Assembly (NCBI RefSeq): GCF_035083965.1
Contig: NC_089735.1
Location: 13,576,501-13,640,500, forward strand
Direction: 5' to 3'
DNA length: 64,000 nucleotides
From: Branchiostoma lanceolatum
Lineage: Eukaryota; Chordata; Leptocardii; Amphioxiformes; Branchiostomatidae
Positions 14,108 through 56,342 of this stretch are shown here, in pieces. The first letter of the stretch is position 1. Each line of letters starts with the position of its first letter. The translations under genes were made by a program, and so were the position numbers. The notes beneath the pieces were generated by a model. It was not told the DNA's origin and made no database searches. It saw nothing but the letters and a program-made list of their open reading frames with translations.

Positions 14108-14314
14108 TTAGCTGGACTCGTTCCTCGCAGCCACCGCCTCCATCATCCTCTCCTGGATGTCCTTTACGCCAGGCAGCGCCACCATGCGGTCCCGCCAGGC
14201 AACGATGTTCTTGTAGCCGCTGACGTCATACCCGACTATCGCCATCATGCCAGTGGCACCGCCAAGGGAGAAATCTGCAATGAAACAAAGGAAGAAATGA
14301 AAGGATTCAACACA

Positions 14315-14345
<31 letters not shown>

Positions 14346-14532
14346 GCACGCACATACACGCACGCACGCACAGACACACACACACACACACACACACACG
14401 CACTCACATACACGCACGCACAGACACACACACACACGCACAGACACACGCAAGCACGTACACACACATACACACGCACGAGCGCACGCACACACACACA
14501 CACACGCACGAGCGCACGCACGCACACACAAA

Positions 14533-14565
<33 letters not shown>

Positions 14566-14732
14566 GCACGCACGCACACACACATACACACGCACGAGCG
14601 CACGCACGCACACACAAACACACACACACGCACACACGCACGCACGCACGCACACACACACACACATACACACGCACGAGCGCACGCACACACACTGTGA
14701 CACACACACACACACACACGAGCGCACACACA

Positions 14733-14778
<46 letters not shown>

Positions 14779-17508
14779 ACACGAACACACACACAAGGTG
14801 TAATTTTTGTCCTATCACTTAAACATTCTGACTACCCACCCGCCAGCGAAAGCTCGTTGCCTGCGACGAAGTTCTTTCCTTCCAGCATGTTGTTGAAGAT
14901 TTCCAACTGATCTGCCAACTTCTTCTTAGTCTCGTCGTCCGGCTCTTTCTTGGCGAACAAAATTGGGGCCTGGGTTCGTGGAGACGACAAGTCGAGAACG
15001 TCAGACATGTAACGTATACGTTTCCAGTTTCCCAGCTTTCAAATGATTGTAATTCTGTAATGTTGCTCGTGACGGTCGTTTTAGGGCCGTGTGTGTTTGG
15101 ATATCAGATAAGAATGCTAAGGAAATACCTTTCTAATTTTATCTATAGATAGATCTATGTTCCTGTCTGCAACTCAAAACACTGCATGTCACTCAACTGC
15201 AATATCCTAGAATAAAACACAGGATATTTTATATTTATAGTTGCAGGGGGTTTCATTATGTGCTGGTTTCTTTATTTCTCTATGGTTTTCCATCATCATT
15301 CTACCCTCTTTCTGTTACCTGTTGTATGCACATACCCGGTAAAGAAATATTCTTTCAAATTTATTAATGAAAAATTCCCATACTTTGAATATTTAAACGC
15401 AACGGATAAAGTCATATTTTTGTGGCGTCTAGACAACCCTTGTACAAGAAACATCTGTTCATACATCTACACATGTACAAAGAAGCGAGAAGAAGTTAAC
15501 ACTAATGGTTTAGCTTAGCTTATCACTTTCGTCTGACATGTATGTTTAAACTATGTACTGTATATATTTCACTGTATATCACTTACATGTTAGTTAGGTT
15601 TATGCTAGACGACCTGTACCTAGCCCCTTGGGGCACGAATGTACAATAAAGGTCTTCATTCATTAAAACAAGCTATTCGAAACAACCAAAACAATATTCC
15701 CGAGCTTTCACCATCTAGAAGACCTCCAAAAAACTACATTCCTACTGAAATCACAAAACCCACTAATCATCAAAAACGTGGGACTTTTCATCAGCCACTA
15801 CCTCCAAAGAAGAAGTCAAACCCTCCAGTAATGTTGTATGTAGAAACATTAGCTAGATGCATAGAATAGACACTCGTTACCATTGTTACCTTACTACTGT
15901 TTGTACCCTTGCAATTAGGCAACGGGCATGAATTTGCAAATAAAAGGCTGTTGATTATAAGATGTACTGACCACATAGCCGACGATGGCAGGGGTGTATG
16001 TGGTCAGGTCGTACTGAAGCATCATGTTGATCCGTGCCCTTTTCTTGGGGTCCTTCGGGTACAGCTTCTCCGGGGTCGAGCTGTACTTGTCGTTCAGGTA
16101 GATATTGATGGCGCGGCTGGAAGGAGTAGAACAATGCGGGAAGCTTTATTTATCTATTTATTTACATTTATCACATTTGTGGAAGGATTGACATAACAGG
16201 TGACTATCACCTTTTCAAGATGTCAACCCAGACCAGACTGTAAGGTTTGGACCATCGCACACCGGGGCATGCCCCTACTCTTTTTCGTAAGGTGTGGTGA
16301 GTTCTTTAACGTGGGCGGGGTGTGGTTCTCCCCAAACACGGGACCTCCATTTAACGTCCTATCCGAGGGACGTCCCTTACCGAAGCGAGATACTCAAGTG
16401 CCTTTCCCAAGGGCACAACGTCCGGGCGCATGTCCAGACATGTCTGGGGCACTGAGCCGGTATCGAACACGGGTTCCCTTGTTTGACGGTCGAATGTTCT
16501 AGCCGTTACGCCACACGACGCCACTATAAAGCTTTAAAGGGATGTGGCTAAGGAAGGGGCATAGTCTTGAGCAGTTGCTAACCTTTGTATATTACATTAC
16601 AGTGCAGTGCTGGTCTTTGGTATATCGTTCTGACGCCATTGTAGGTTTAGTCTCTTGTCTAGCGTTGTAAAGATTATTGTTTGAGCATGCGTACAGCTCC
16701 AAGAGCAGGTCATAACCTGGTTAATATGGCGACCAATGAAACAATGGGATATGTGACAAACACCCTTTGGCGCAAAAACAAATAGCACAGTCTACGCCAC
16801 AAATCAAATAGACCCTGACAACCTAATATTGCCCTAAAACGGAACACTTCGGAATTGATTTTCAGCATAGACTTATATGGAATATGTGAATTTAATGAGG
16901 TATCACGTTTAGTATCAATTCCACGTACTATCGATGGTGAACGTGTCGTTTACCTTGCAGGTCGGATAGTTCAAAATAATTGGCAACGATAAAATCAACA
17001 TAAAACTTCTTATTGCATGTAAAAAAAACTACATTCGTACTTAAATCCCCAAAACCCACTAATCATTAAAAACGTGGGACTTTTCAGCAGCCACTGCCTA
17101 CAAAGAAGAAGTCAAACCCTCCAGTAATGTTGTATGTAGAAACATTAGCTAGATGCATAGAATAGACACTCGTTACCATTGTCACCTTACTACTGTTTGT
17201 ACCCTTGCAATTAGCCTACGGGCATGAATTTGCAAATAAAAGATTCATATTGCAGGTCCCCGTGCAAGTACTATCAAACGCTACTTTTCTAGTGGAACCT
17301 CAACTCACCTCTCCCACATGATGAACCCGTCGTCGTCGATAGTGGGAACGCAGTGACAGGGATTCATGGCGAGAAACTCTGGCTTCATTTGTTCTCCCGC
17401 CAACAGGTCCACAGGCTTCTCCTCAAGGTCCAACCCGATCGTCTTGGCGCACATCATCACCGCACGACAAGGGGCCGACACGATGTTGTGGTAGAGAGTC
17501 ACAGGCAT
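14108..17508 (-). CDS. Glutathione S-transferase, theta/delta-like (GST-1), complete, four exons
   Basis: Exons in transcript order are 17309-17508, 15972-16116, 14840-14969 and 14108-14274, all in phase, giving 213 aa. The enzyme conjugates glutathione to electrophiles in the cytosol. The N-terminal thioredoxin fold is [19 protein letters not shown], with the active-site Ser in the SAPCRA motif typical of theta and delta classes, then [18 protein letters not shown] (cis-Pro loop and glutathione-binding segment). The all-alpha C-terminal half has [14 protein letters not shown], the conserved Asp motif, and ends in [14 protein letters not shown]. The start Met is the only one available after a likely 5'UTR acceptor (CAACCAG just upstream). 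The third intron is almost wholly a CA-rich repeat. The paralogue GST-2 lies 2.3 kb upstream on the same strand. GST-1 lacks the intron that splits the first domain of GST-2. Confidence 0.93.
14311..14795. repeat. Compound CA/CACG-rich simple repeat in GST-1 intron 3
   Basis: Nearly 500 bp of ACAC and GCAC tracts with higher-order blocks such as CACGCACGAGCGCACGCA repeated four or more times. It produces 130-236-codon ORFs of Cys-Val or His-Thr repeats on both strands, which are artefacts. Confidence 0.97.
15240..15665 (+). mobile_element. 5'-truncated LINE fragment with 3' tail
   Basis: The open frame to 15518 contains [18 protein letters not shown], then [12 protein letters not shown]. It is homologous in pattern to the C-terminal block at 10980-11297 but more diverged. 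The tail is GGGGCACGAATGTACAATAA followed by AGGTCTTCATTCATT. It lies in GST-1 intron 2. Confidence 0.6.
15690..15955 (+). mobile_element. LINE 3' end, family L-A (copy 1)
   Basis: Nearly identical to 17022-17245. Both carry AAACCCACTAATCAT, AACGTGGGACTTTTCA, AAGAAGAAGTCAAACCCTCC and the tail GGGCATGAATTTGCAAATAA. It was inserted next to the preceding LINE tail inside GST-1 intron 2. Confidence 0.7.
16230..16522 (-). mobile_element. tRNA-derived SINE, family S3
   Basis: The minus strand begins GTGTGGCGTAACGGCTAGAA (A-box-like) and has GTGTTCGATACCGGC (B-box-like). The body shares GCCCTTGGGAAAGGCACTT with the SINE at 48060 and GAAAAAGAGTAGGGGCATGC with 27400. It lies in GST-1 intron 1. Confidence 0.7.
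17022..17245 (+). mobile_element. LINE 3' end, family L-A (copy 2)
   Basis: Direct repeat of 15730-15955 with few differences. It ends GGGCATGAATTTGCAAATAA 64 bp before the GST-1 exon 1 donor side (17309). Confidence 0.7.
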
Positions 17509-17919: not shown

Positions 17920-18135
17920 TGTTGAAAGTTTATTGCAAAGTCCTGCCCGTGGGCTAATTGCAAGTACATGCACATGTAACACGGAGTGGACGTACGGACA
18001 ACAACAACAATATAACATACGACTTCTCTAGCCTTAGCTACTGACACTAAGTTCTAACGTATTGGGCTCGGCTTCTTTTTCCGAAACAGTGGAAGACGAA
18101 TGATCCCACTTTTTCTGTTATATGTGGGTTTTGGG
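17920..18135 (-). mobile_element. LINE 3' end, family L-A (inverted copy)
   Basis: Starts on the plus strand with GTTTATTGCAAAGTCCTGCC, the complement of the family tail, and continues to a CCCACTTTTTC...GTGGGTTTTGGG stretch that corresponds to the AACGTGGGACTTTTC region of the other copies. Confidence 0.55.
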
Positions 18136-19776: not shown

Positions 19777-21557
19777 TTACGACGGCAATGACTTCAACAT
19801 CTCGTACCATCCCTTGTTGGTCTCCTCAAAGTACGGCAGCGCCCTCATGCGGTCGTTCCAGGCCTTGACGCAAGGGTAGTTGCTTTTGTAGTCGTAATCC
19901 TTGAAGTCTAACATGGTCAGGGAGACCATCATGCTGAAATCTGCGGAAGAAAGTGTCAAGAGTTTTTGAACTACAAGAATGTAACGTTTTAAGAAATCTT
20001 CCATACTCAAAATCTATCACTATCGAACTATTGGATTTTTCTTTTTATTTAAGTTGAATGTGTGATAGTTGCGTGCCGATTTGTTAAAAATAGAGAGAAC
20101 GCTAGCGACCCTAAAAAAAAAACCCCTCCCAATAAAATGGTATGGCGACCCTGTGACGTCACAATTCAAGATGGCGGCCACCACACATGCCAACGGATGC
20201 AACAAAGGTTTTGCTACGCAAACCTGTAATTTGTTCACGCGAGGAGCGCAGACATACCAACAAGGTGTACAAGTCTGTTGTCTTCCATATAATAGAATCT
20301 ATCTTAACGAACAAAAGGATTTGGCCATACACTGACATGTGGCGATCCTTGCAATTGCCTTGTAAATACAGGGCAACAAATAAGGAAGAAAGCTACACGT
20401 GTTTGAAATTCTTGTGCAAACTGTACAGATATGTGACATCATACCATACTATAAAGTCTCTTTTTGAGTAGTTTACTTTCGTTGTTGTTAAGTAATAGAC
20501 ATTACCATATGGTGCACCTTATATACGATAATTGTGCAATGAAGTTATTATGTAAAATGTAACTTAAGATGTTGTACCGTACCTGCCAGTGTAAGACAGT
20601 CCCCCGCTACGTAAGACTTCCCCTCCAAGATTTTGTTAAATAGGTCCAGGGCAGTCTTGACCTTCTCCTCTATCTCCGGGTCTGCATCTTTCCCCTGAAG
20701 AATCTGTGGTACCTGTGACAGGTGAGAAAATGTGTGTTATAGTTCGTGTTAGTCAGTTAAAATCCTCCCACACCATAAGGTGTATAGGGCGGTGCCCATC
20801 CCCGTTTCATAGCCCTGGGCCACACTGTGGTGCAATCACTGCAGCAGGGGGCTAGTCCACTGTTGTATTTTACATACTGTTTCAGAAATATGTACCATTT
20901 TTATGAAGTCTTTGGCATGGCTCAATGTGCCTCTTGTCCAGAGGTGTCCTACCCCGGCACGAATACGGGCCTTCTGGTTCCACGTAATTTGAACCAGATG
21001 TGATAAGTGACTGAGGCGCAGACCACTACACCACAGGGACACCCCCCCCCCAATAGTTCGTGTAACAAAGGAAATACGGGCTCAAGGAGGAGCATCTGTG
21101 TTTGGTATATGAAGTCTGCATACGTAGTCATCATCATCATCATCATCATCGTCGTCGTCGTCATCATCATCATCATCATCATCCTCACCATTGAATGATA
21201 CATCATCAATGATTAATGATTACTAATATAGATAGTAAAGTCAAAGTTTATTGCACAATAATCAACGTTAACAGGTACAATGTACGGCAAAATACTACTG
21301 GCACTGGCTACTCATATTAATCTAGTACAAAGTACAGGGAGGTTCTAGGCTATACAACTATATGATGAGGAGTTGAATGTCTTACGCATGTTCTGAAAAT
21401 CAGTTTATAGACGTGACATGACTGTTACTATTTATCACTATTGAATGCTTGTGTCTTTGTGAGTGTTACGGTTCGTTTGTGTGTGTATGAGTGTGTGCAT
21501 TTTCATGTGTGCACACGTGTGTACTACGTGTTCATTTGTGTCAGTGTGTGTGTGTGC

Positions 21558-21591
<34 letters not shown>

Positions 21592-24500
21592 CTTGCTCGT
21601 CTCAGCTAGACATTAAAATGACGTTTGCAGTGAATCAAACTGTGACATACATGAACACTGATTGATTGACACCTGTAAGGGACGACACTTACTATGTAGT
21701 CGCCGATGTTCGAGCCGAACTGTCTTTGGAATCCGAACACAAGGTTGACTCTAGCTCGCTTCTGAGGATCTGTCGGGTAGAGCTTTGAAGGGTCCTTTGC
21801 GTACTTGTCGTTCAAATAGACCATGATGGCGACACTGAAGAGACGAAATACACACAGTTTAAAGGAAACCCGAGCAATATTAGGGTCCGAAAAATCGGAT
21901 TTTGAAAGTCAATTTATTCAGTCATTTCTAAACATACTTATTTCAAACAACACTATCGCAATGTATAGCAACGTCCATGATGCAAAAATACGACGTTGTT
22001 GTGATGTGAGAACTCACTGAAAATCGACGCCGGAGCTTTTGTAGCCTCACGAAACTAAGGGGATCATCGTACGGTACGATTTTGCGTGGTTTAAAAATCC
22101 TAAAAATATGAAGTTCTTATGTAAATGTGCTAAACAATATTAGTAAATGTCACTACGATAAAGATTTCAATATTTTTGTTTATTTCTCTTCTTTGGCCCC
22201 AATATTGCTTTGGTTGCCTTTAAATCTTTGAAGTGTCTTTTGTTGTCCTTTGTTGATGCGACAAAGTAGTATCAAAACTAACGCGGTGTAAGCAAAGGAA
22301 CAGATTTAGCACAGACTTCCAACTATATCTTCAAATCACATGAGATGTCTATGATATTTTCAATGCAAATGAAAGATTTTATTTGTAAGCAATGGATTAG
22401 AGTGGATGTGAAATATTGGAAATCGCACAGCGTGCATACTAGCTACACTTTGATAATTACCATGTAATCGAGCACCAAACATTTTCTGCTGAGTCATTTT
22501 GTAAGCATACGTGGTGCGTGTGGTGTAATTATACCAATCCGATCAATTTGGTAATCGAGAAACCACATGTTATGTTTGTTATCCTAAAAAAAACCACTAT
22601 CTCCAAATCAACTACCTCTCAGAGTCTTGCTTGCTTACTAACAGAACATCAGACTTTTGAATATTGGCATTTTCTGAGAAGGGAATTTCTTTTTATCAGA
22701 TATACAGTGTGTTATATTCTGTTTCATCGTTATTTTTGTGACACATAGAAGGTAAAAGATTTACAAACACCCTTCTCCTACCCCTTGATGAAATGGAGTA
22801 CTCCAAGACATCTGTACCTTGGAACTTTAAACCGCGTTTCCAAGTAACCGACGCCATAACACCGTCTCAAGTTTTACAACAACACCACGTACACCCCAGT
22901 GAACATTCACACATCAGGCATGGGTGCCATGGATCCCTCTGGCGTTCAAAGAGACCCCAAGAAACGTTTCCAAAGCAAACACAGCTTGTTGCTAAGATCA
23001 TTTCTTAGGCAAACAATGATACCCCTCTCAAGACACGGCGAAAGCCAACATGACAAAGCAAAATTAATCGCTGACCAAAGTTTAGCGGGTTTTATTGGTT
23101 TAATGGACAAAGATTGCTTCCACGACTTTGACCCGAACCGACCCCGTGGCTAGGCACCGAGCTCGTGAATAACATCAACAAAAGGTCTTAAACAGCAAAT
23201 ACGATTATAATAGAAATAATAGTTTATTGCAAATTCATGCCCGTAGGCTAATGATGTTGACAACAATGTCGAAATACAAATGTAAGGTAAAACAAAGGTA
23301 TACATGAATACAAAATCATTCTATATTGCTATTCTACAGATGCCAATCTTTAGATGATTAATTCTTATTTGAATTTGAGTTGGAACCCAGGAAGATATGC
23401 TTAGAAATTATATAGTTAGAGTAGGACAGGGTTAAATTCAAGCAAACCACGGAAGAGAGTGGATCATACGTAGTGTCTACTAACTAAATTATAAGACGTG
23501 TCAATCTTGGGGCACATAATAAACTGTCAAGAAAAGAACCGCAATGTGTGGTAAACTCTTCAATGACAACACCGGTATGTGACGGCGCTCTATATAAAAT
23601 GGCGTCGGAAGTCTTGAGGTAAAGATTATAAAAGCTATGATATGCATGCGCCTATTAACGAAATGTCTTTAAACTACGGTTTAGCTCATAATAGCATGGA
23701 ATTCTTTTAACTTATATGTCTCCCGAGCTAAAGAAAAGTTCTTGTTATGCGGATGATGTTAATACCTGAAGTTGGGGGCGTAGGCGTCAGTTTCCGACAC
23801 AAGATACACCCTCCTTTTCCCACTATGATAACTAAACTAAACCATCATGACGAAACACTTTTTTATGTGATTACATAACCTACAAACCAGTTAACACTTT
23901 TTCACTTATTTCATTGTGGAGAAAATACAGGTCAGCTAATGAAACAAACATATATACTCATAAGAATATTTAGTTTGAACTGCAATTCTATAAAGATGAA
24001 TTGGTACGCACACGTTTTTTATGTTAATAGTGAAACACACGTTTTAGATATTCTTATAAAAAAATTGTATCTAAATGCCTTACCTTTCCCAGAGTGTTAA
24101 GTCCCCGTCCTTGATAGTGGGGACACAGTGGCAGGGGTTCATTGCCAGGAACTCTGGAGTCTTAGTCTCCTATTGACAAGACAGAACACGTTTAGTGACG
24201 GGAAATTAGCCATCTAAACAATCTTCATGTAACCCAAGGGTAAAACACATAAGACACATTTCTTTCCTACAAAGACTAGATAAAATGAATTGCAACGTAC
24301 GTACTGATGTATTGAAAAGTATGAATTTCTTATACCTAGTGTTACTTCGAAAGGTGCTAGAATTTACAGACATATGCTACATGTTGCTTATTAGTTATCT
24401 TCGCCAAGAAGATCATGTTTTTGGTAGCGTTTGTATGTATGTATATAAGTATGTAGAAAAGCAGAATAACTAGAAAAGGTCTGGATGGATTGTCTTGATA

Positions 24501-24834
24501 TTTGGTATGTGGATAGGTCTTGATGAGACCTCCGAATGATTACATTTTGGGCCTCGTAGCGGCTTGTTTATTATAAAGTTAAGAGAGATATCTCTTAGCG
24601 TATTTGTAGGCCTAGCGTATCAACCTATTAGACAGTTAAAAAACAAAGTAGCATACATACCCCCTTCGTGAAATCTACGGGCTTGTGGTTGAGCTCCAAG
24701 CCGGTCTCTTTAGCGAACATAAGAACAGCACGACATGGCGGCGATATGTCCGCCAAGTACAGGTCCACCGACGGTTTCGTTGTACTCGTAGCTGTAGGCG
24801 CGGTCGCGGTCGGCTTCGAACCACCACAACCCAT
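19777..24834 (-). CDS. Glutathione S-transferase, theta/delta-like, with N-terminal acylation signal (GST-2), complete, five exons
   Basis: Exons in transcript order are 24661-24834, 24084-24169, 21693-21834, 20583-20712 and 19777-19940. All are GT/AG and in phase, giving 231 aa. The core is a theta/delta-type GST: VDLYLADISPPCRAVLMFAK with the active-site Ser, [18 protein letters not shown], then AGDCLTLADFSMMV and AWNDRMRALPYFEE. It differs from GST-1 by about 22 extra N-terminal residues, MGCGGSKPTATAPTATSTTK. Gly2, Ser6 and Lys7 fit the N-myristoyltransferase consensus, Cys3 suits palmitoylation, and a flexible Thr/Ala/Pro linker follows. This predicts membrane attachment, unlike ordinary cytosolic GSTs (inference). 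The extension is in the same exon and frame as the catalytic Ser, so it is not a splice artefact. The intron after DFTKG is absent from GST-1. Introns hold a CRE/YY1 repeat, a SINE and MITE family 6. Confidence 0.94.
20030..20232 (+). repeat. Dispersed CRE/YY1-bearing repeat, copy 3
   Basis: TGACGTCA at 20153-20160 and AAGATGGCGGCC at 20168-20179, in the same arrangement and orientation as copies 1 and 2. It lies in GST-2 intron 4. Confidence 0.8.
20756..21046 (-). mobile_element. tRNA-derived SINE, family S1 (copy 2)
   Basis: The minus strand starts GTGTCCCTGTGGTGTAGTGG, giving an A-box-like TGGTGTAGTGG, followed by TCTGCGCCTCAG. The rest matches 3522-3800. It lies in GST-2 intron 3 and is followed on the plus strand by a C-run and a (TCA)n tract at 21127-21185. 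Confidence 0.75.
21127..21185. repeat. (TCA)n/(TCG)n trinucleotide tract
   Basis: About 18 triplets, ATCATCATC with an internal GTCGTCGTC block. A GT-rich tract follows at 21470-21592. Confidence 0.95.
21860..22223. mobile_element. MITE family 6 (copy 1)
   Basis: Ends TTTAAAGGAAACCCGAGCAA and ATTGCTTTGGTTGCCTTTAA. The interior includes GGATCATCGTACGG. Copy 2 is at 62240-62672 in opposite orientation. It starts 26 bp from the GST-2 exon 3 acceptor side. Confidence 0.85.
23212..23300 (-). mobile_element. LINE 3' tail, family L-A
   Basis: TAGTTTATTGCAAATTCATG then CCCGTAGGCTAATG is the complement of the tail seen at 15955 and 17245. The extent to the right is unclear. It lies in GST-2 intron 2. 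Confidence 0.5.
24395..24590 (+). repeat. Short copy of the CTTCGCC repeat family
   Basis: Starts AGTTATCTTCGCCAAGAAGA and contains GGATGGATTGTCTTGATATT and GGGCCTCGTAGCGGCTT. It is parallel to the opening part of the larger repeat at 41697-42862. It lies in GST-2 intron 1. Confidence 0.65.
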
Positions 24835-25079: not shown

Positions 25080-25360
25080 GGTGCCCCGATGTTGTGCCCT
25101 TGGGAACGGCACTTTACACAACTTTCCTCACTCCACCCAGGTGTGAATGGGTACCTGACTTTGGTTGGGGAAGGTCGTATCGAGGTCACCTGCCGGCACC
25201 GAATGGCAGCCGCCTAGACCCTTGCGACAGTTCCACAAAGTACAAGTGTGGAGTAAATATGTATCTGTTGTGTATTATGTGATTGTAAACCCTGAAGAAA
25301 TTCAGCACTGGCTGCCATTGCACGGGTAATTTCTGACCAATAAACCATTATTATCAATAT
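25080..25360 (+). mobile_element. tRNA-derived SINE, family S4 (5'-truncated)
   Basis: From GATGTTGTGCCCTTGGGAAC onward it matches 48120-48395 almost base for base, including CCACCCAGGTGTGAATGGGT, but the tRNA-like head is missing. It lies upstream of GST-2. Confidence 0.8.
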
Positions 25361-25738: not shown

Positions 25739-26163
25739 GTAAGGCTACACCAAGTAATTTTTATGGATGACGTCCGCGCGCGCATTGATTTTGGTCTGTT
25801 CCAAGAAAAAAAACAAGAAATTGTGCTTCCTGTAACTATGACCAAAGAGTTCCTTTTTTATTTAACATATTTCTGCAGGCCTGCAAAATCAATGGGATAT
25901 GGAAAGAAACAGGACAGGACAACAACTGCTGTTCAACTTCAACTGATTTATTCAAATTATTGCTTTTTTCATGATGGATCAAAGAATTGTTAGTTGTTAC
26001 ACTGTGTCCTCTCATTCAATTTGCGTCCTAACATGTGTCGTCGACTATTTTTCAAATCTAGGCATCTTGTTTTTTTCGGCCCTTCTTGTTTTTTTTTCGC
26101 GCTCTCGCATTAGATTTAGGGTCTCCAAAGGACGTCATCCATAAAAATTACTTGGTGCAGCCT
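25739..26163. mobile_element. Terminal-inverted-repeat element, about 425 bp
   Basis: Ends AAGTAATTTTTATGGATGAC at the left and its complement GTCATCCATAAAAATTACTT at the right, about 33 bp each. The interior 139-codon ORF has no recognisable transposase motif. Confidence 0.85.
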
Positions 26164-43476: not shown

Positions 43477-43561
43477 CCTTTGATACAGACCTTGTTTTTA
43501 GAGCGAAGTTCTTCTCATCATCTGCCATTTTCTCGTCTTTAACGCCACACATTTTGGTCAT
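43477..43561 (-). CDS. Possible divergent first exon opposite macroH2A
   Basis: On the minus strand an open frame [18 protein letters not shown] continues [10 protein letters not shown] and meets a consensus donor AAG/GTGAGC at 43476. The internal Met of MADDEK has a strong context (AAAATGG). Its 5' end is only 28 bp from the macroH2A start codon, so it would imply a bidirectional promoter. No second exon was recognised to the left. It may be antisense to a macroH2A 5'UTR. Confidence 0.25.
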
Positions 43562-43588
43562 TATCTCCTGTGCACATTCCTCGGCGGT

Positions 43589-50768
<7,180 letters not shown>

Positions 50769-53500: not shown

Positions 53501-53772
53501 ATTAACGAGATTTAAAAGTCATGACGTGTTGGCAGACGACGTTACATAACTAGCAGACGACGCGCTACTGAAGCACACAAAATCTGCCGCTATTCCAGGT
53601 TTTTATGGCCGAAGATTGTTACGATTACTAAATTCTTTTCATCTTGGACAAAATTTCACGGCATTTTGGTGTACAACTGAAGTTGGCGCCAGAAATTCGT
53701 GCGCAGCAGCTCAGGCACCTCCTCTTGCCCCCCTCCCCACTTATTCCAGGACTGACGTTTTGTAACGCCACG

Positions 53773-56342
53773 ATGGCGACCAACGTGCACGGACCTTCCG
53801 TTGCTATCGTCGGCGGTGGTATAGCGGGCCTGGTGTGTGCAGCTCGCCTGGGACAGCTCGGCATCACCGCCGCCACCGTGTTTGACACGGGAAGCCACGC
53901 CCCAGGCGGCCGGTGCTCCACCAGGAAAATCGACGTCGCAGGAAAAACGTTCCTCTTCGACCACTCGGCCCAGTATTTCACCGTCAGCGACAATCGTTTC
54001 GCCAAAATCGTCTCATTTCTGCATGCCAAAGGAGCCGTGAAGGTATGGAACGGGCCAGTCGGTGTACTGAAGGGGGGTCGGTTTGAGAGGAAGTCCAACC
54101 TGCAAGCGTTTGTGGGTACAGAGGGCATGAAATCCGTCCCAGAGTGCCTTGCTACTTTGTCAAGAGTGGAGAGGCCGGTTTGGATCGGCAACGTGGTCTG
54201 GGAACCTATGGCCAAGAAATGGAAAGTTGGCAAGTAAGTGTAGTAACTATGTACAGGGCTCGAAAAAGTGGGTGCATGTGCACCTGTGTGCACCCAAAAT
54301 TGGAACTGTGCACCTGATTTGAGCTGTGGGTGCACCAGTGCACCTAGGTATTTTTGTAGGCTATAGGGTAAAAGTACTAATTGTACACTTGTATACAGAA
54401 TATTGTTGAAATGTAAGTATCAGAACAAGTTATGCAACTATTTGTTTTACTTTATTTGATGTATTTAGCATTACTTAGAATTACAGATTGAAGTTCAAGA
54501 GAGGCAGTAGCATAAACTTTGTAATTATGTTTTGCTGACATTCTACTTAATTTTAAATTGTGCACCCAAAATTCATACTGTGCACCTAATTTCTTTGGTT
54601 GGGTGCACCAGTGCACCTATTTCCAAAAATGAATTTCAAGCCCTGATGTATGTGAGTGTGTGTGAGTGCATGTGAATGTACAAACGCGTGTATGTGTGCG
54701 TGTGTGTGCGTCCATGATGGGCGTGTGTGTGCATTTGTAGTTATTTATGTTCCCTGGTTGACAAGTCTCGATGTTACAGACTGTTATGAGTATATATTTA
54801 AATGCAACGATCCCCACAAAGCAAAAGTAGGTAAATATTCAAATGACTGCTTTATCATTAGAAAAAGTACCGAAACAAATGATTAGCCCTACTTGATTAT
54901 AACACTATATCAAAAATGTATGCTAGCCCTTATTGCATTAGTAATTAGGATGTTAAGTTTTATTCTATACTTCTATTTTGCATTATGTTTAAGCCATACT
55001 TTGTACCATGCACAATTGTCGTGCAATAAAAAAGTTCTTCTTCTTCTGTCTTCTTGAAACAGATTACAAGGTACTGAGACATAAGATGTTACAATCTGCA
55101 CAGGTCACTGTCAACTTACAAGAACTAACATATTATCTAACTATGTTCTTGTTCATAACAGGAATGGATACTTTGACTACCTTGTGATTGCACACAATGG
55201 GAAGTGTGCAGACCGTCTGATGGGCAATGCTGGGGCTCCGAAGATCCACGAACTTCTCCGAGTGCGCTTCACTCCCAAGCTGATCCAGAAGGTTCAGCAA
55301 ATGCAGTTGTGCTCTCTGTGGGTGCTACTGGCGGTGTTTCCTACCAGCCTGAAGTTACCGTTCGAAGGAGCGTTCGTGGAAGACTCGGACGTGACATGGG
55401 TGGCAAACAATACGGCCAAGCTGGGTCAAAGGGCAGCTGGGGACGGCAGCGAGTGTTGGACTATTTTTAGCTCCCGACAGTTTGGAGCTGCCCACAAGGT
55501 GAGGGCTTTCATTATGTCAAAGTGTTCTTTCAAACTTCACAATCATTAATGCTGATCTTTGAACAGTCTTGTATCTTTTCTGTAATTTTCTAACTGTGAT
55601 GTATTTCATGATGTTATCAACTTTATGCCACTTTGCATTGAATGTTAACATAATATTCATTTGTACATAAGATTATAAAATATTGCATATGGAGAGTAGG
55701 TGAATAGTACTCTCCAAGAAGAGCATGGGTTTCGGCTGGTTTTTGACGTGTTTTTAGGCGTTTTTGTCGGGCTTTCTACTTTGTATTTTTTTGTGCGGAG
55801 TTGGCTAGACAAAAAAAAACATGACAAAGTAGAAAGCCCGACAAAAACGCCTAAAAACACGTCAAAAATCAGCCGAAACCCATGCTCTGCTTGGAAAGTA
55901 ACTGAATAGCTACTTTTTTATCTTCTGGTTGCAGGTGCCACAAGAGAACATCCCGCCAGGCAAAGCTGACGAGGTGACAAAGCGACTCCTAGCAGCCTTT
56001 GCAAAATCTGCAGGTCTTGATTCAAGGGCTCTCCCGAGTCCAACCTACACCAAAGTCCAGCTCTGGGGGGCAGCCGTTCCACTGAACGTGTTGGACGGAG
56101 CAGACTGCGTGTTCCAGTCATCGCAAAATGTGGGGATCTGTGGAGACTGGCTTGTTAGCCCTTGTATTGAAGGCGCCGCCGTCAGTGGACTGGCCCTTGC
56201 GGAGTCTATCCACCGCCATGTTAGGGGGGAGCGGAGAGATACAGGCCTCGGCTGTACATTTAAGCCTGTTCATGGACCTGCCATCGGGTCGTTTCCAACC
56301 AACAGTAAACTGGTTTTCAACCCTGGAGGAAAAACTGTTTAA
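53773..56342 (+). CDS. Renalase-like FAD-dependent oxidoreductase, complete, three exons
   Basis: Exons are 53773-54233, 55162-55498 and 55935-56342, all in phase, giving 401 aa. The N-terminus carries a Rossmann dinucleotide site VAIVGGGIAGLVCAARL, then GGRCSTRK and DHSAQYFTV as in renalase and related NAD(P)-binding amine-oxidase-like flavoproteins. The C-terminus has the second FAD motif VGICGDWLVSPCIEGAAVSG followed by LALAESI. Such proteins oxidise small reduced substrates; the substrate here is unknown. An in-frame upstream extension exists but has no ATG (it opens with TTG), so the Met at 53773 is used. No secretion signal is visible. Both sides of the gene carry a copy of MITE family 10. 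Intron 1 contains a GTGCACC-rich element and intron 2 a family 1 foldback. Confidence 0.93.
54254..54650. mobile_element. TIR element rich in GTGCACC, intron 1 of the FAD enzyme
   Basis: Ends CAGGGCTCGAAA and TTTCAAGCCCTGA are inverted. Near each end lie two or more GGTGCACCAGTGCACCTA-type palindromes and GTGCACCCAAAATT. The middle is AT-rich. Confidence 0.8.
55707..55902. mobile_element. Foldback MITE, family 1 (copy 2)
   Basis: Same arms as 724-935 (GGTTTTTGACGTGTTTTTAG, GTCGGGCTTTCTACTTTG). It ends 32 bp before the acceptor of exon 3 of the FAD enzyme, so it may occupy the branch-point region. Confidence 0.9.

Follow-up and report, generated by a model that had tools for sequence, protein, structure and literature searches.

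A delta/theta-like glutathione S-transferase of Branchiostoma lanceolatum with a predicted N-terminal dual-acylation tag

A cytosolic-type GST with a putative lipid anchor

We analyzed a window of 64,000 nt from the Branchiostoma lanceolatum genome (contig NC_089735.1, positions 13,576,501 to 13,640,500, forward strand) and found that the glutathione S-transferase gene GST-2 opens with a reading frame that encodes a complete N-myristoylation motif, a short linker and a GST fold with an intact signature, while its tandem paralogue GST-1 starts directly at the fold. Judging from these features, GST-2 is probably a catalytically complete, delta/theta-like GST of the cytosolic type, which an N-terminal dual-acylation tag would hold on the cytoplasmic face of a membrane.

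Gene models of GST-2 and GST-1

Both genes were located by a tblastn search of the window with the GST-2 protein as query, and the exon ends were refined by choosing GT-AG junctions near the expected boundaries with the frame kept open. GST-2 was modeled on the minus strand as five exons (24834-19777) separated by GT-AG introns and encoding 231 residues. Exon 1 (24661..24834, minus strand) contains 58 codons, which cover the tag, the linker, the start of the fold and Ser31. Exon 2 (24084..24169, minus strand) encodes the glutathione-site loop NPCHCVPT and the beginning of WES. The 3' boundary of exon 3 (21693..21834, minus strand) is one among several open choices, and the 5' boundary of exon 4 (20583..20712, minus strand) is one among two. 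Exon 5 (19777..19940, minus strand) includes the stop codon, and an AATAAA lies 27 nt beyond it. With the start and stop fixed, the splice search yielded 24 open combinations, and filtering on the expected residues at three junctions left 6 distinct models of 228-234 residues. These 6 filtered models vary at the exon 3/4 junction only, which is distant from the N-terminus. An AlphaFold prediction of the exon 1 frame (68 residues, the last ten being readthrough into intron 1) was uninformative, with a mean pLDDT of 59 and a pTM of 0.31.

GST-1 (14108..17508, minus strand; exons 17508-17309, 16116-15972, 14969-14840 and 14274-14108) lies downstream of GST-2 in the same orientation and encodes 213 aa; two open models, of 213 and 212 aa, were obtained. 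The two proteins are identical at 99 of 210 aligned positions (47%). GST-2 carries a phase-0 intron after Gly58, which is absent from GST-1.

The N-terminal tag and linker

Positions 24775-24834 on the minus strand correspond exactly to codons 1-20 of GST-2, MGCGGSKPTATAPTATSTTK. The first seven codons encode the heptapeptide MGCGGSK (24814..24834, minus strand), which combines a predicted N-myristoylation signal (Gly2, Ser6 and Lys7) with a predicted S-palmitoylation site at Cys3. The motif had been recognized in the initial annotation; translation confirmed it, and it satisfies every position, Lys7 included, of the N-myristoyltransferase (NMT) substrate motif M1-G2-[^DEFRWY]-X-[^DEKR]-[ACGST]-[KR]7, as quoted in PMC9018777. 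The heptapeptide is followed by a translated linker rich in Thr, Ala, Pro and Ser (residues 8-22, PTATAPTATSTTKPS; 24769..24813, minus strand). In three alignments that were viewed, the solved delta GSTs pair from their second residue with GST-2 residue 22-24 onward, and thus approximately the first 21 residues of GST-2 are an addition outside the fold. Translation and these matches bear out the annotated Thr/Ala/Pro linker ahead of the fold, and the linker shares one exon and one frame with the active-site Ser, as had been claimed, since Ser31 falls within exon 1 (24834-24661). The tag and linker contain only two basic residues, Lys7 and Lys20; therefore, GST-2 lacking palmitate would probably bind membranes only weakly. 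When the tag was used as a 26-residue query against solved proteins, it returned one chance match (E 2.5) and no homologue.

Sequence controls were used to compare the motif with chance. The window contains 2434 ATG triplets on both strands and in all frames, and 1700 of them are open through codon 7. Gly2 was encoded after 57 of these open triplets, and a loose PROSITE-style pattern was present in 15. The strict NMT motif occurred at 1 of the 1700, which is the GST-2 start; because most ATGs in the window are not starts, this count is a control on the sequence and not a proteome rate. Requiring eight open codons gave 52, 13 and 1 cases, respectively. With generic amino-acid frequencies, MGCxx[ST][KR] is expected at about 2e-5 per start, which corresponds to about half an occurrence per genome if 25,000 genes are assumed. 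By the controls used, MGCGGSK at the GST-2 start is above chance. The MGCxxSK arrangement of GST-2 is that of the Src family (Lyn, Hck), and the N-terminus of BAALC is very similar.

Fold, active site and class of the enzyme

GST-2 matched two Pfam domains above the cut-off, PF02798 (1.8e-12) and PF00043 (2.6e-11), and it thus belongs to the cytosolic GST superfamily, having a thioredoxin-fold N domain and an all-helical C domain. The three delta enzymes viewed have identical residues at the positions aligned with Ser31, His72, Glu86 and Ser87 of GST-2, and GST-1 shares them as well, which suggests that the glutathione site of GST-2 is intact. In such enzymes the N-terminal Ser, the His and the Glu-Ser pair belong to the glutathione site, and the Ser is catalytic. 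Overall, GST-2 resembles the delta GSTs 3vk9, 1pn9 and 5zwp in having both GST domains together with the Ser, the NPxHxxPT His and the ES pair at aligned positions, whereas in the three alignments viewed the delta enzymes have no counterpart of its tag. Delta GSTs are best known from arthropods, whereas GST-2 is an amphioxus gene. A microsomal (MAPEG) GST was also considered and rejected: Pfam gave 6 matches with an E-value of 0.001 or less, which comprised only cytosolic GST domains and no MAPEG domain. As a separate observation, the loop NPCHCVPT of both amphioxus GSTs contains Cys-His-Cys, and Gln precedes the His in the three delta enzymes viewed.

The best solved relative of GST-2 was 3vk9, named Delta (E 9e-47), and the best relative named theta was 4mpf (theta-2, 4.4e-26). 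Sixteen solved sequences ranked ahead of the first named Epsilon (2il3, 7.2e-36), including 10 of delta or D1/D2 type and 6 of unnamed class. For GST-1, the best solved relative was 1pn9 (1.1e-53), for which the table gave no class; the best named Delta was 9nxw (8.1e-53), and 4mpf (theta-2) followed at 1.4e-23. Both 1pn9 and 5zwp are Delta enzymes. The earlier label of "theta/delta" is sharpened slightly toward delta by the rank of 3vk9 over 4mpf. It has been described that theta and delta labels are confused and that delta, epsilon and theta can be grouped in one Theta-like subgroup (PMC3995644); on the basis of that description, GST-2 and GST-1 are termed delta/theta-like here, without a class assignment.

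The paralogue GST-1

GST-1 opens with MPVTLYH at the fold itself, and an in-frame TAG lies ten codons upstream. These observations agree with the initial annotation, in which the paralogue had no extension, and they indicated that the contrast between the two genes is real. The possibility that GST-1 also carries a tag-like extension was excluded within its first exon by the same in-frame stop.

Neighboring repeats and genes

Several repeats were observed around the two genes. At 25742-26163, which is about 0.9 kb ahead of the GST-2 start codon, 34-nt terminal inverted repeats with 97% complementarity lie 354 nt apart, and a 28-nt core of the arms (up to 3 mismatches) occurs at those two sites only in the window; the element looks like a MITE-type insertion. 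A 24-nt motif, of which no copies were expected by chance, occurs three times, at 16396-16419 (minus strand), 25091-25114 (plus strand) and 48128-48151 (plus strand). The first of these falls within an intron of GST-1, and the second precedes the GST-2 start by about 0.26 kb; all three may be fragments of a dispersed SINE-like repeat. A 193-nt repeat with 96% identity is located in two GST-1 introns (15754-15946 and 17050-17242), with a related 32-nt piece inverted at 17933-17964. The last GST-1 intron consists mostly of an AC-rich microsatellite (14310-14795, about 119 four-base units).

Other genes were also seen in the window. A histone H2A-like piece with MSARGGKK... at 43502-43789 (plus strand) had no Pfam match at 0.001, and a second piece at 45604-45975 (plus strand) gave a Histone_H2A_C match (2.5e-13) followed by a Lys/Pro-rich stretch, an arrangement that resembles macroH2A. 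An ORF at 53632-54234 (plus strand) matched NAD_binding_8 (E 7.6e-13), as in an FAD/NAD oxidoreductase-like gene, and a lipocalin/fatty-acid-binding-type domain (E 3.4e-9) was found at 1448-1810.

Proposed membrane anchoring

NMT modifies suitable N-termini during translation, and the fitting N-terminus of GST-2 is therefore likely to be modified. In the proposed mechanism, Gly2, exposed by loss of Met1, would be myristoylated co-translationally by NMT. Cys3 could next be acylated by a palmitoyltransferase of the membrane, and the protein would thereby be trapped on the cytoplasmic side of the plasma membrane, the Golgi or the ciliary membrane; the Thr/Ala/Pro linker would serve as a flexible tether. 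Tethered GST-2 might act by conjugation or reduction on electrophiles at their source, lipid-peroxidation products among them, and untagged GST-1 would supply the cytosol. Both acylations, the location, the substrates and the division of labor with GST-1 are what we infer from sequence; acylation and tethering are plausible rather than proven. A membrane-bound GST-2 would fit local lipid-electrophile detoxification or redox signaling, and the sequence, apart from the intact glutathione-site residues, favors neither. The ciliary membrane is a lead only, suggested by the theta-type GST of sea urchin cilia described below.

Alternative explanations

The proposal depends on translation from the modeled start codon. 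The GST-2 ATG stands in the context AACGATGG (A at -3, G at +4), and the frame is closed by a stop ten codons upstream, immediately before 24864. The next in-frame ATG of exon 1, at 24720, falls beyond Ser31; thus an exon 1 AUG start that yields the whole fold must be the one at 24834. If the main start lay elsewhere, in an upstream exon or at an alternative promoter, MGCGGSK would be untranslated, internal or restricted to a minor isoform. Upstream ATGs do exist, out of frame or opening short frames, and AG dinucleotides in and before the tag offer candidate acceptors. However, the pyrimidine fraction at the 12 AGs in or upstream of the tag is 0.41-0.59, against 0.65-0.76 at the four modeled acceptors, so that splicing past Met1, which would strip the tag, is possible and looks weak. 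Together with the upstream in-frame stop, the good ATG context and the lack of another exon 1 ATG ahead of the fold, the first modeled exon of GST-1, which likewise opens directly with a start codon and the fold, makes a start elsewhere quite unlikely. It is far less probable still that the extension is a mitochondrial presequence for organelle import instead of an acylation signal. Residues 1-22 include 12 Ser, Thr or Ala and two Lys, and no acidic residue occurs ahead of Asp24, as such a presequence might have; yet the same residues contain three Pro, three Gly and no Arg, and a hydrophobic moment of 0.11-0.16 across 8 windows of 18 residues gave no sign of an amphipathic helix. The presequence was disfavored on these grounds.

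A further explanation accepts the extension as real and regards acylation as irrelevant: a former 5' leader would have become a neutral tail after duplication, leaving an N-acetylated or unmodified, soluble protein. The low complexity of the linker would suit such a tail. So would a weak alignment (anchored score 16) between the DNA upstream of the GST-2 fold and the untranslated leader of GST-1. Among 500 dinucleotide shuffles, 18 scored at least as high, as did 4 of 500 positions sampled at random in the window; the highest value in the latter set was 60, which suggests that one sample fell close to the locus. With a different set-up, an earlier shuffle test gave no signal, the score being matched in 1101 of 2000 shuffles. 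Growth of the tag from an old leader is accordingly a hint only. The third-position GC content was 0.55 in codons 1-22, against 0.70 in the remaining coding sequence, and a leader origin is neither proven nor excluded by this difference. A functionless tail nevertheless seems unlikely, because the full NMT motif with Cys3 is rare by chance (1 of 2434 ATGs in the window; about 2e-5 per start for MGCxx[ST][KR]) and co-translational NMT would likely modify an N-terminus that fits. The preferred reading, a dual-acylated GST-2, can be extended to the origin of the tag: after duplication, the GST-2 leader may have turned into the dual-acylation tag, giving a permanently tethered scavenger of lipid electrophiles or a redox signaler at the ciliary or plasma membrane, with GST-1 remaining soluble. 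We regard this extended scenario as possible, though somewhat doubtful.

Significance

Cytosolic GSTs are commonly regarded as soluble enzymes, and the route by which some, such as GSTP1, reach membranes is an unsettled question. If the anchoring of GST-2 is real, an enzyme with a built-in and genetically simple tag beside an untagged paralogue would be a natural experiment on the effect of membrane placement on this enzyme. It would also add a further soluble protein that acquired a lipid anchor through a short N-terminal addition.

Comparison with known systems

Among the papers listed from the open-access literature, no report of a myristoylated GST was found, an absence that is no proof; nor was any occurrence of "MGCGGS" found in that literature, and the papers listed on amphioxus GSTs included none, judged by title, on the GST-2 gene. 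One scan each of viral contigs and prokaryotic genome contigs gave 20 and 47 pattern matches, respectively, and tblastn showed a relative in none of them.

Among GSTs, human GSTP1 is like GST-2 a cytosolic-type enzyme, and it has been described at the plasma membrane and as lipidated with palmitate (PMC11398671). It differs from GST-2 in the absence of Gly2, for which reason its authors considered myristoylation unlikely (PMC11398671). As described there, membrane binding was not significantly altered by palmitoylation in vitro, and no CDNB activity was detectable in the membrane-associated form, which calls for caution in assuming that a tethered GST is active (PMC11398671). A theta-type GST from another marine deuterostome, the sea urchin, is reported as a major component of the apical-tuft cilia of embryos; Triton X-100 releases it, and its location is given as "membrane-bound or cytosolic" (PMC3812683). 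The main text of that paper contains no match to "myristoyl" or "lipid".

Parallels to the tag come from other families. The dual-acylated MGC proteins of the Src-family, G-alpha and globin X type carry an S-palmitoylated Cys next to the myristoylated Gly, and GST-2 has Cys3 at that position. For G-alpha-o, the N-terminal seven residues, among them Gly2, Cys3 and Ser6, served to map membrane targeting; the Gly2 mutant is reported to have lost membrane association, and the C3N mutant to have stayed largely cytosolic on fractionation (PMC9018777). Fish and amphibian globin X, like GST-2, belongs to a family of soluble proteins and bears Gly2 and Cys3 on an N-terminal extension, and both acylation sites are described as required for correct membrane localization, as established with mutants and GFP fusions; it differs in being a globin and in that its sites were probed by mutation (PMC3176823). 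Arabidopsis thioredoxin h2 also has an N-terminal extension, in which Gly2 is reported to be myristoylated, keeping the protein on endomembranes, but it is a plant thioredoxin, and the palmitoylation site predicted in its subgroups is Cys4, not Cys3 (PMC8389195). In sperm hexokinase 1, whose fold is unrelated to that of GST-2, N-terminal acylation is described in one isoform; HK1S is reported to lack a classical myristoylation motif, whereas GST-2 has one (PMC4736023). Rheb, again of unrelated fold, is described with N-terminal myristoylation and/or palmitoylation in seven protist lineages (PMC5869587). The accounts of hexokinase 1, thioredoxin h2 and Rheb indicated that N-terminal acyl anchoring recurs in unrelated proteins. 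Such anchoring is a known device; a GST that carries it seems out of the ordinary, although it would not be a new type of system.
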